Program-made: the position numbers and the translations under genes
In this document: one piece after another, positions 35,737-38,461 of the stretch
Layout: every line of letters begins with the position of its first letter
Position numbering within the stretch: position 1 is the first letter of the stretch
Assembly (NCBI RefSeq): GCF_017876675.1
Contig: NZ_JAGIOI010000001.1
Coordinates: 1,984,001 to 2,048,000 of the forward strand
From: Arthrobacter stackebrandtii
Lineage (GTDB): Bacteria > Actinomycetota > Actinomycetes > Actinomycetales > Micrococcaceae
Direction: 5' to 3'
DNA: 64,000 bases
Notes under the pieces: generated by a model
What the model was told of the DNA's origin: nothing
Databases searched by the model: none
Seen by the model: only the letters and a program-made list of their open reading frames with translations

Positions 35737-36747
35737 TCAGGCGAGCGGCGAGAGGGCCAGGAAGAACACCATGCCGCCCAGCACACAGGCCACGGGAGTG
35801 GCCAGCCACGCGACGGCCACCCCGGCCAGCGCCCGGCCGTTGGTGGCCGAGAAGCGCTGGTTCTCGCCGGCCCCCACGGTCGCGGCAGTCACTGTATGCG
35901 TGGTGGACAGCGGCATGTGCAGGCCCAGGGCGCCAAAGAACAACAGCCCGGCTGCCACCAGTTGCGCAACGAATCCGCGCATGGGGTCGATCCGCACCAG
36001 CCGGTGCCCCAGCGTGTAGGAGATCCGCCAGCCGCCAAACAGCGTCCCCGCGGCGAGCAGCACCGCCGTGAAGATCGGCACCCACAGCGGCATTTCGCCG
36101 GCCCCGACGACCCCGGCAGCCAACAGCGCAAACAGGACAACCGCCGTCGTGCGCTGGCCGTCCTGCAGGCCGTGGCCAAAGGCGACAGCTGCACCAGCCA
36201 CGGACTGCAGTTGCCGCACCCGCCGGTTGACCTGGTTCGGTGCCGTGTTCCGTGCCGCCCAGGAAGCGGGGTAGACGGCCGCGAACCCCAGCACAAACGC
36301 CACCACGGGCGATACCACCAGCGGCAGCAGCACCAGCGCAAACATGGTGGTGTTGATGCCCTGCAGCGGCGGATGGCCGATCACCGCCGACCCCAGGGAC
36401 GCACCCACCAGTGAACTGATCAGCGCATGCGTGGACGAGGACGGGATGCCGCGCCACCACAGGTAAATGCCCCACAGGCATGCACTGACCAGCGCCGCCA
36501 GGAGCAGGATCAGCCCGTTCCGGCCCGGCGGGACCGTGAACAGCCGCTCGGCAAACGCAGCGGTCAGCACCACGCTCAGCAGTGCGCCCAGGCAGTTGAA
36601 CAGGGCCGCGAGCAGCACCGCGACGGACGGCGTCAGGGCGCGGGTCCGGACGGAAAGTGCGACGGCGGCCGAGGCATCGCGGAAACCGTTCAGGAACGCG
36701 AAAATCGCCGCCGCGACGATCACGGCACCGAGCAGGAACGCGACCAA
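35737..36747 (-). CDS. pit: Inorganic phosphate transporter, PiT family
   Basis: A 336-residue membrane protein with about ten helices, probably a proton- or cation-coupled low-affinity phosphate carrier. The two PiT repeats are visible but divergent: NGFRDASAAVA near residue 20 (family NGxxDxANA) and HGLQDGQRT near 190 (family HGANDAQ). The SSTHA and STTHT segments are well kept. It follows the DUF47 gene with a two-base gap, the common Pit-PhoU-like operon. Divergent signature residues may shift affinity or substrate. Confidence 0.9.
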   Translation of the reverse strand: MVAFLLGAVIVAAAIFAFLNGFRDASAAVALSVRTRALTPSVAVLLAALFNCLGALLSVVLTAAFAERLFTVPPGRNGLILLLAALVSACLWGIYLWWRGIPSSSTHALISSLVGASLGSAVIGHPPLQGINTTMFALVLLPLVVSPVVAFVLGFAAVYPASWAARNTAPNQVNRRVRQLQSVAGAAVAFGHGLQDGQRTTAVVLFALLAAGVVGAGEMPLWVPIFTAVLLAAGTLFGGWRISYTLGHRLVRIDPMRGFVAQLVAAGLLFFGALGLHMPLSTTHTVTAATVGAGENQRFSATNGRALAGVAVAWLATPVACVLGGMVFFLALSPLA

Positions 36748-36749
36748 GC

Positions 36750-37370
36750 CTAGGATTCCTTAACGATGATGCTGCCAACCTGGGTGGCGATGGCGCGCAT
36801 TTGGCGGCTGCCGGCCGCGAACTGGTCGGTCAGGGCCTTGTACTTGGCGAAGGTGGTGGGGCTGTGGGCGTCGAGGAGTTCGGCAACCACCACCCGGTGG
36901 GTGTGGTCGGCGCGCTTGGCCAGGCGCAGCACCTCAAGCCAGTAGTCCTCCAGGCTGTCCAGGTCGTTGAGGGACTTCATGGCCCCGATGGTGAGTTCAC
37001 TTTGGCGGGAGAGGATTTCCAGCTGGTCGCTGACACGGTTGGGGTTGCGGTCCAGGGTGTACAGCTCGATGATTTCGCCGGCGCCGGAGAGGATTTCGCT
37101 GGTTTCGTTGAGCAGCTGCCCCAGGGCGTAGAGGTCTTCACGGGGCAGCGGGTTGACGAAGCTGGTGCGCATGCCGGTCAGCAGTGTGGCGAAGTCGGCG
37201 GTTGAGGCGGCCTCGTGCTGGCGCAGCGACTCGGCCAGTTCGCTAAAGTCATTGCGCCCGGCGCCGAGCATCTCGGCCAGGGTGTGGGTGCCGGCCAGGA
37301 TCTGCTCGGACATGTGGGCCAGCGCCTGCAGTCCGGCGGTCTCCTGGGGGAAAAGTCGCAGCTTCACCAT
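36750..37370 (-). CDS. DUF47 / PhoU-like phosphate transport regulator
   Basis: A 206-residue all-helical cytosolic protein related to PhoU and typically co-transcribed with pit, as here (two-base gap). Helices carry the usual pairs ETAGLQALAHMSEQ near the start and LARQADH-like RLAKRADHTHR near 150. It is thought to control Pit activity. AAGGG lies before the ATG. Upstream lies a structured element ending in a T-run (37419-37510), which could attenuate the operon. Confidence 0.88.
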   Translation of the reverse strand: MVKLRLFPQETAGLQALAHMSEQILAGTHTLAEMLGAGRNDFSELAESLRQHEAASTADFATLLTGMRTSFVNPLPREDLYALGQLLNETSEILSGAGEIIELYTLDRNPNRVSDQLEILSRQSELTIGAMKSLNDLDSLEDYWLEVLRLAKRADHTHRVVVAELLDAHSPTTFAKYKALTDQFAAGSRQMRAIATQVGSIIVKES

Positions 37371-37418
37371 GCAGCCCTTACGTTGGCGGATCCCGTCAGG
37401 TTCCAGGACTTTCCGGGC

Positions 37419-37510
37419 AAAAAAGTGGTGTCGAACCGGGAGCGCCTCTCGGCACTGGGCCGCTCGTAGCGGCTATAAAATGGAGCCCGGGGGTTCCACG
37501 GTTCGACACC
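37419..37510 (-). ncRNA. Candidate cloverleaf RNA: small RNA or pit leader attenuator
   Basis: Read on the minus strand, GGTGTCGAACCG (37499-37510) pairs perfectly with CGGTTCGACACC (37427-37438). The 60 bases between fold into three hairpins: TGGA/TCCA with CCC/GGG, GCCGCT-ACG-AGCGGC, and AGTGCC-GAGA-GGCGCT. TTTTTT follows (37419-37424). A promoter fits just upstream: TTGACA (37540-37545), 17 bp, AAGACT (37517-37522), placing the RNA start at the first base of the stem. It is not a tRNA. The fold is manual and not energy-checked. Confidence 0.55.
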
Positions 37511-37560
37511 GCTTTCAGTCTTGTACGTCTTGCCCCAAGTGTCAACCGGGACCCGGTGGC

Positions 37561-38208
37561 TCAGTCCAGTTCGCCCTTGCGCCACGACTTCGCGGCGCCC
37601 TCCAAATCCTCGGCCGTACGCACCAGCTGGTGGGCTTTTTTGGTCAGCGCCGCCGAGTGCTCGGCGTGGGCAGCCTCACGTTCCGAAGCCAGGGTTGCCT
37701 GTCCCAGGGCAATGACCCGGCAGAAGGCGGCGGAGCGTTCCAGGGCAACGTCGAAGTCGCCGTCGAAGGCGCCGGACAGGATGGCGTTGGCCATGTCGGT
37801 GATCTCCTCTGCGCCCGGGGGCTCGGCCACGCCGGCAACGGCATTGGCCACCTGCGCCGTCTGCTGGCCGGCGCGGAAGAACACGCTGATGCCTTCGGGA
37901 TCCTGCAAGGTTGCCGCCCGCAGCGCATAGAGCCGCCACAGGGCGCCGGGGAGCGAGCGAGCCGGGCTGGCGGCCCACATCTCCGCGATCGCCTCAAGGC
38001 CCTGCTTGTCGGCGAGCTTGACCAGGCGCTTCGTCACCTCGGGGTCGTTGCTTTCACGGCCTCCGCGGACCAGCGCCCGGGCAGCAAGGTGCGCTGCTTC
38101 GGATACGCGCGCCGGATCGGTGCCGCCTGCAAACGGCTCAAAGTCGGCCGGGGCAAAAGGAACCGGCTTGTGCGGTCGGGGTGCGCTGCTGGCTGGTCGA
38201 TCGTTCAT
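37561..38208 (-). CDS. Conserved-looking helical protein of unknown function
   Basis: A 215-residue protein, cytosolic and almost entirely helical (many A, E, L, R), with a Pro-rich first 25 residues and a basic end (KSWRKGELD). No catalytic motif or membrane segment is visible and I do not recognise the family. The ATG lies six bases after TAGTGT on the minus strand, so it is probably leaderless. The DUF47-pit operon follows downstream, separated by the cloverleaf element. Confidence 0.65.
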   Translation of the reverse strand: MNDRPASSAPRPHKPVPFAPADFEPFAGGTDPARVSEAAHLAARALVRGGRESNDPEVTKRLVKLADKQGLEAIAEMWAASPARSLPGALWRLYALRAATLQDPEGISVFFRAGQQTAQVANAVAGVAEPPGAEEITDMANAILSGAFDGDFDVALERSAAFCRVIALGQATLASEREAAHAEHSAALTKKAHQLVRTAEDLEGAAKSWRKGELD

Positions 38209-38381: not shown

Positions 38382-38454
38382 GGGCCTTTAGCTCAGTTGG
38401 TAGAGCATCGGACTTTTAATCCGTGGGTCGCGGGTTCGAGCCCCGCAGGGCCCA
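38382..38454 (+). tRNA. tRNA-Lys (anticodon TTT)
   Basis: The cloverleaf is complete: acceptor GGGCCTT with AGGGCCC (one G-U pair), D-arm GCTC/GAGC, anticodon loop CTTTTAA reading AAA/AAG lysine codons, T-arm GCGGG-TTCGAGC-CCCGC and discriminator A at 38454. CCA is not fully encoded (CCGA follows). A strong terminator lies just downstream, so it is a single-gene unit. Confidence 0.97.
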
Positions 38455-38461
38455 CCGACAC

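Follow-up and report, generated by a model that had tools for sequence, protein, structure and literature searches.

A short intergenic region in the Arthrobacter stackebrandtii window, by which we mean the whole 64,000-nucleotide stretch of DNA that was analyzed, raises the question of whether it holds a leader of the adjacent phosphate transporter operon or an RNA gene in its own right. On the minus strand, the region is preceded by a 215-aa ORF (37561–38208) with no Pfam or NCBIfam match and is followed by a DUF47 (PhoU_div-like) gene (36750–37370) and by the pit phosphate transporter gene (35737–36747; Pfam PHO4, E 1.3e-61). The DUF47 protein is divergent, with a Pfam PhoU_div match (E 0.01, 15.6 bits) that falls below the curated cut-off of 24.4, and its Arthrobacter homolog is annotated as "DUF47 family protein." Beyond the 215-aa ORF lies a tRNA-Lys(TTT) gene (38382–38456, plus strand); tRNA-Lys was also found in three of the eight relatives' loci scanned (L042, L051, and L053) and tRNA-Met in two (L031 and L036). 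The analysis described here leads us to conclude that the intergenic region almost certainly contains a structured, stand-alone RNA gene. By computation, its closing stem is held by compensatory changes, its loops are near-constant, promoter motifs are placed for a transcript to begin at about that stem, and the RNA is independent of the gene that follows it.

The predicted RNA of ~90–97 nt (37419–37515, minus strand) begins ~50 nt past the stop codon of the 215-aa ORF, with its extent taken from the fold and from a covariance model match and its ends from prediction. A sequence-only reading of this DNA had described a perfect 12-bp stem enclosing three small hairpins, one with a GAGA tetraloop, and all of these elements are present on the minus strand, where the stem can be read directly from the sequence. 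The 5' arm of the closing stem, P1, is GGTGTCGAACCG (37499–37510), and the 3' arm is CGGTTCGACACC (37427–37438), both supported by the sequence, a repeat finder, and covariation. With the repeat finder, P1 extends to 17 positions with one mismatch (94% complementarity). Inside P1, the fold places a C-rich hairpin, H1 (37481–37498), marked by a constant CCCCGGG; a second hairpin, H2 (37459–37473), with a YNNGA pentaloop; and a third, H3 (37441–37456), with a GNRA loop that is GAGA in the window copy. Letter conservation supports the assignment of H1, and loop counts among relatives support those of H2 and H3. The minus-strand fold of 37419–37519 has the shape that had been described and an energy of −51.3 kcal/mol, compared with −29.7 ± 3.1 for shuffled sequences (z −6.91; 0 of 200 shuffles as low), and its MFE and centroid structures agree, with no competing fold. 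A fold of the plus strand (37440–37545) gave a z score near 0, which is uninformative because it concerns the opposite strand and lacks one arm of P1.

Both ends of this RNA can be placed tentatively in the window. A TTGACA −35 box of the sigma70 type (37540–37545, minus strand) and an AAGACT −10 box (37517–37522, minus strand), separated by 17 bases, are found ahead of P1 as the earlier reading had stated, and transcription from them would start at the first base of P1 or a few bases earlier. AAGACT is a poor −10 box, with A instead of T as its first base; many relatives have TANNNT nearby. A simple promoter scan of the window region listed no site. At the other end, the sequence confirms a run of six T's (37419–37424, minus strand), two bases 3' of P1 and 48 bases ahead of the DUF47 ATG (37370), both spacings being those first reported. 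Together P1 and the T-run make a likely intrinsic terminator, at which the transcript may end in Arthrobacter. A simple terminator scan of the window region listed no terminator, a result that follows from its loop limit of eight bases. Rows of the genus, and a few besides, have a T-rich stretch directly after P1, which is absent from most rows of other genera; in the Streptomyces copy L089, another strong hairpin follows, ending in a T-rich tail.

Evidence that P1 forms also comes from relatives. Compensatory changes, whose absence had been named beforehand as grounds for giving up the idea of a structured RNA, were found in sets of 50, 95, and 80 rows. Among 50 sequences, standard pairs fill 96.7% of pair cells, compared with 92.2 ± 0.3 in shuffles, and slid partners pair in 31–45% of cells; 11 pairs show double changes, as against 5.6 ± 1.4 in shuffles. 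Double changes occur at 9 of the 12 P1 pairs in this set and at all 12 in the alignment of 95 sequences (A3). The larger alignment contains 343 double-change cells (109 ± 8 in shuffles) and has a covariation score of 0.405 (0.156 ± 0.006 in shuffles); 16 of its pairs have at least one double change, which is no more than shuffles can give (14.2 ± 1.1, with 53 of 500 as high). Eighty of the 95 A3 rows were chosen by a pattern scan that required core letters, so that the constancy of the loops and of H2 and H3 in A3 is partly by construction, and the counts were for this reason repeated on 80 distinct rows that BLASTN or the model had retrieved. In these 80 rows, 2056 of 2158 cells are paired, and P1 exchanges of the same kinds recur.

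The hairpins inside P1 behave differently from one another. H2 and H3 seldom vary among relatives. The second pair of H2 is C-G in 69 and U-A in 11 of the 80 distinct rows (U-A in 37 of the 95 A3 rows), and the four inner pairs of H3 are kept in all 80, with a single change from C-G (63) to U-G (17). The H2 loop reads YNNGA in 78 of 80 rows, and the H3 loop reads GNRA in 70 of 80. In H1, the inner C-G pairs never vary and the outer pairs are often broken, with 23 of 49 informative cells unpaired at one H1 pair among the 50 sequences; the changes support the predicted pairing of H1 weakly. All 80 distinct rows share the CCCC, two G's, and the A that follows the hairpin and, judging from this alignment, the H1 region is one that conserves letters rather than pairs. 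When copies were folded singly, a closing stem of at least nine pairs formed in all 158 distinct copies; most of them (116) have three hairpins, and the rest have two (18), one (21), or four (3).

This RNA reaches much of the class Actinomycetes, far beyond one family, and the covariation search over Micrococcaceae that had been proposed was accordingly too narrow in scope. The window's genome has the stretch only once, and each of 23 genomes of the genus, the window's included, has one model match. Across the order, BLASTN found a match in 56 of 58 genomes (window's genome included), and the portion kept in distant genomes spans roughly stem to stem. The covariance model R1, built from the 50 sequences, scores 103.4 bits on the window at 37422–37514 on the minus strand, compared with 31.9 bits on the plus strand. 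R1 matched 217 of 394 class genomes, and a wider model, R2, matched 239 of 393 class genomes of at least 90% completeness, the window's genome counting in both draws, which overlap, and the stricter filters of these large searches losing weak matches. Under those filters, 154 of the 393 genomes had no R2 match; four match-free genomes (G059, G066, G120, and G136) were empty again when rescanned with looser filters, and thus absences of the RNA occur. In a draw from the phylum, R1 matched 14 of 198 genomes, each of which is labeled as belonging to the window's class or to a closer group. Named genomes were also scanned with a pattern, which yielded at least 120 stretches, 80 of which were analyzed, with L189–L228 left out. 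Carriers among the matches listed include Streptomyces, Kitasatospora, Nocardia, Gordonia, Williamsia, [Mycobacterium] manitobense, Modestobacter, Geodermatophilus, Nakamurella, Bifidobacterium, Actinobaculum, Arcanobacterium, Rothia, Kocuria, Nocardioides, Microbacterium, Brevibacterium, and Cellulomonas. In all tallies, related genomes enter more than once, Streptomyces most.

Streptomyces-like genomes also contain longer, divergent relatives of ~116–131 nt (L243, L244, L252–L257, L260, and L261), which match R2 more weakly, at 31–47 bits. These relatives retain CCCCGGG and GCCGAGAGGCG and differ in between, a pattern that points to H1 and H3 as the likely working parts. Single-sequence folds of the longer relatives do not agree on one inner shape, and an ECF-type promoter motif, considered below, lies upstream in 10 of 10. 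Copies were also seen in less usual settings. In the stretch L099:2886–3162, two copies stand in tandem, 182 bases apart, with an ECF-type motif ahead of each. The Streptomyces copy is matched by 28 Rhodococcus plasmid records, one of them at five places; a "DNA ligase" gene lies beside the RNA in two of the four plasmid stretches viewed (L263–L266), and the match in L263 is short and weak (38.5 bits). The RNA also appears on one IMG/VR contig (L262:12454–12546), which may be bacterial rather than phage DNA, and in an unannotated fecal "Bacteriophage sp." record (MT838127.1:56–138), which may likewise be bacterial DNA.

The regions upstream of P1 suggest that promoters accompany the RNA and that they are of two kinds. 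Of 188 upstream regions, 50 have a full sigma70-type motif by the criteria used here (mean 4.6, maximum 11 in shuffles), and 91 of 157 distinct regions have a TANNNT that starts between −16 and −4 of the model start (mean 12.3, maximum 23 in 200 shuffles). A motif of the ECF type was noticed first in second copies, as GGAAY ~18 bases before GTT, and was counted afterwards. The SigR consensus is given as GGAAT-N18-19-GTT in PMC9205884; in the looser form GGAA[CTG]-N15-19-GTT, 50 of 159 copies have the motif where the promoter would lie, compared with 0.26 expected (5 hits in 3019 neighboring windows), and the other 109 do not. Of the 50 motif-bearing copies, 35 have a spacer of 18. These figures derive from 161 copies in two alignments, of which two without full upstream sequence were set aside, leaving 159 (157 distinct for the TANNNT count); a count of 73 in 188 regions includes some places twice and leaves out L242, which makes 50 of 159 the cleaner number. 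Neither a full sigma70 motif nor an ECF motif was found in 69 of the 188 regions, 20 of which are without even TANNNT.

At least 12 named genera among the matches listed carry the ECF-type motif: Streptomyces, Nocardia, [Mycobacterium] manitobense, Microbacterium, Gordonia, Williamsia, Nakamurella, Geodermatophilus, Georgenia, Agromyces, Microcella, and Cellulomonas. In several carriers, GTT begins GTTANNNT, such that the ECF and housekeeping −10 boxes overlap. Three Rhodococcus plasmid copies have, by eye, GGAAT-N18-GTT. The motif is absent from the window copy and from the 13 other genus rows examined; the window copy has TTGACA-17-AAGACT only, which is of the housekeeping type and not of the SigR/SigH type. 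From these motifs, ECF stress control of the RNA in many lineages appears very probable. A stress-type promoter ahead of many copies makes a stress regulator more likely than a phosphate transporter switch.

The window itself gives some reason to consider such a switch. The RNA lies close ahead of the DUF47 ATG on the same strand, with a T-run after P1 and with no separate promoter established between the T-run and that ATG, and it could therefore be a leader or attenuator of the DUF47-pit operon, with the P1/T-run terminator opened under phosphate starvation. Among 57 locus rows, in which two places occur twice and distances are measured from the end of the BLAST match, DUF47 follows on the same strand within 400 nt in 40, all genus rows included; it is elsewhere in 4 and was not found in 13. 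Across 160 loci, whose neighbors were called with a crude ORF caller and clustered by single linkage, 102 have their nearest downstream ORF on the same strand as the RNA and 48 have it on the opposite strand, and at the other 10 no downstream ORF was found. At 50 of these loci, the first two same-strand ORFs downstream include DUF47 or pit, and at 21 they include a malic enzyme-like gene; other, different genes follow elsewhere. A constant same-strand downstream gene of one pathway, the mark of a phosphate cis-leader, was thus not found, and the variety of downstream neighbors, with DUF47-pit after only part of the loci, argues for a stand-alone sRNA gene. The missing T-run in most rows from other genera and the single, uncontested fold also speak against a switch. 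As a general reading, the attenuator or leader suggested earlier does not hold, and even for DUF47-pit we consider it improbable, whereas the stand-alone RNA of ~90 bases suggested alongside it is supported by the fold, covariation, and independence from neighbors on which this prediction draws. In Arthrobacter, P1 and the T-run may nevertheless act as a local terminator before DUF47-pit. At one other locus, a copy of the actinobacterial sRNA Ms_IGR-5 (RF02471) lies ~250 bases from the RNA (L101:3287–3477, minus strand).

The upstream neighbor offers another reading, in which the element is no more than the 215-aa ORF's intrinsic terminator, or else an inverted repeat that is mobile. The short distance from the stop codon of that ORF would suit a terminator, and in 52 of the 160 loci the closest upstream ORF on the RNA's strand belongs to the cluster of this ORF. 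At several loci, however, it lies on the opposite strand or could not be located, and constant hairpin loops and an intervening promoter are not things that a terminator requires. Copies on Rhodococcus plasmids would suit a mobile repeat, but a repeat is hard to reconcile with one copy per genome in all 23 genus genomes. We consider either version very improbable.

What the stand-alone RNA does can be proposed in outline. We think it probable, with some reserve, that the window contains the local member of a family of clover-leaf sRNAs in Actinomycetes, with its own promoter and a role in trans as a stress-related riboregulator. The RNA would be transcribed by the housekeeping sigma factor in Arthrobacter and by a SigR/SigH-type ECF sigma factor in Streptomyces, mycobacteria-related lineages, and others, often from an ECF promoter that overlaps the housekeeping −10 box, and the window's transcript would end at P1 and the T-run. 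Its most likely working parts would be the constant C-rich hairpin (H1) and the GNRA hairpin (H3), which could bind G-rich ribosome-binding regions of target mRNAs, a conserved RNA-binding protein, or both. That P1 varies freely beside near-constant loops suggests the loops as the working parts. Pairing through C-rich sequence is a mechanism known from other sRNAs, and by analogy action in trans on mRNAs via G-rich sites is possible, if somewhat less than an even prospect. A CUCC follows H1 in Arthrobacter and is not kept in Streptomyces, which argues against a fixed anti-Shine-Dalgarno sequence, and that candidate was dropped.

Near-constant loops on a freely varying stem also resemble a protein or tertiary-contact surface. 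The RNA could accordingly be a scaffold or decoy for a protein (RNA polymerase, a ribosome factor, or an RNA chaperone) instead of an mRNA-pairing sRNA, a reading that we find tentative and rather doubtful. It gains from the presence of RNA polymerase-binding RNAs in Actinobacteria, such as Ms1/scr3559 and the ~85-nt scr0792 (PMC11077062), and loses in that the S. coelicolor section of the same paper names scr3559 and scr0792 and no other abundant RNA polymerase-bound sRNA. The window RNA is, moreover, without a large central bubble of the 6S RNA type. A relationship to bacterial Y RNA (YrlA-like), which is bound by the Ro60/Rsr protein, would account for the outline: Y RNAs are ~90 nt long, with a long closing stem and a tRNA-like clover-leaf outline, and the window RNA shares all three features. 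The TROVE domain (PF05731), however, was found in 0 of 38 genomes, the window's included, with the control detected in Deinobacterium chartae, and no Rfam match links the two, which leaves this relationship hardly credible.

Of these possibilities, the stress-related riboregulator can be taken one step further, to the family as a whole. The clover-leaf RNAs may be the RNA arm of the SigR/SigH thiol-stress response, ECF-driven in many deep lineages, moved under or shared with the housekeeping sigma factor in genera such as Arthrobacter, present as a longer paralog in Streptomyces-like genomes, and carried on Rhodococcus plasmids, a proposition to which we give nearly even chances. If this link is true, the thiol-stress response would have a conserved RNA component. 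Regardless, the finding is real and larger than was first claimed, a family across the class with no matching Rfam family. To our knowledge, the sRNAs common to Actinobacteria are few (6C, Ms1, and housekeeping RNAs). Here, one structured RNA with its own promoter motifs occurs in Streptomyces, Nocardia, Gordonia, mycobacteria-related species, Bifidobacterium, Microbacterium, and Arthrobacter, which makes one and the same RNA open to tests in several laboratory strains.

The earlier remark that no family of this shape was known agrees with Rfam 15, in which no supported match was found. At gathering thresholds, the whole window gave tRNA only; 37300–37650 gave no match at E <= 10; and none fell on the RNA in six relatives (E <= 5) or in 19 relatives (gathering). 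For the Streptomyces copy at E <= 10, one chance match overlapped the RNA (P37, 14.3 bits against a cut-off of 50), and permissive thresholds gave chance matches only, besides tRNAs. For the wider family, no describing paper was found in the literature searched, which had few subscription journals within its scope, and strings of the RNA sequence gave no match in papers.

A known name may nevertheless belong to the Streptomyces member. Streptomyces copies (e.g. L089) have a HelD/HelR-like helicase gene upstream and a malic enzyme-like gene downstream, and we take SCO2952 to be such a helicase. The sRNA scr2952 of Streptomyces coelicolor (Vockenhuber et al. 2011, as related in PMC8388888) has confirmed expression and was conserved in over half of the Streptomyces examined; its name points to SCO2952, and SCO2951 is a malic enzyme according to PMC7494193, matching the downstream neighbor. 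The location of the Streptomyces copy beside genes of these kinds suggests that it may be scr2952. PMC8388888, however, also states scr2952 to be in Rfam, and no Rfam family matches the copy, which counts either against the identity or against that statement. RF02829 (Scr4115), RF02834 (VqmR), and RF02826 (Scr6925) were set aside as scr2952 models, each being a different RNA, and an S. lividans Rfam annotation in PMC8079986 lists no scr2952. SCO2951 and SCO2952 are absent from the main texts of PMC9205884, PMC6767563, PMC10771440, and PMC5775266, as is SCO2952 from those of PMC6344877 and PMC7157823, and passages of PMC4046766, on C. glutamicum sRNAs, gave nothing that ties to the RNA. With the evidence conflicting, the position makes it about even that the Streptomyces member is scr2952; if so, the family would provide context for an sRNA known mostly as a name.

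Among RNAs common to Actinobacteria, 6C RNA (RF01066) is alike in being an sRNA with C-rich hairpin loops but has two hairpins, each with six or more C, whereas the window RNA has one C-rich hairpin. It was rejected as an identity: RF01066 has no match in the window's genome, and in two scanned genomes with a match (above the cut-off in G306 and just below it in G395) it is a separate locus. Ms1/scr3559 is about 300 nt long with a 6S-like bubble, and 6S RNA has a large central bubble. Like the window RNA, Ms1 is a widespread actinobacterial stand-alone RNA (PMC9130861); unlike Ms1 and 6S, the window RNA is ~90 nt, has a four-way junction, and matches no Rfam family. An Ms1/6S reading was set aside after this comparison. 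A parallel to the proposed regulation lies outside the Actinobacteria. MicA, RybB, and MicL are RpoE-dependent sRNAs of E. coli, and the RNA proposed here would be like them in that an ECF sigma factor drives the expression of small RNAs.
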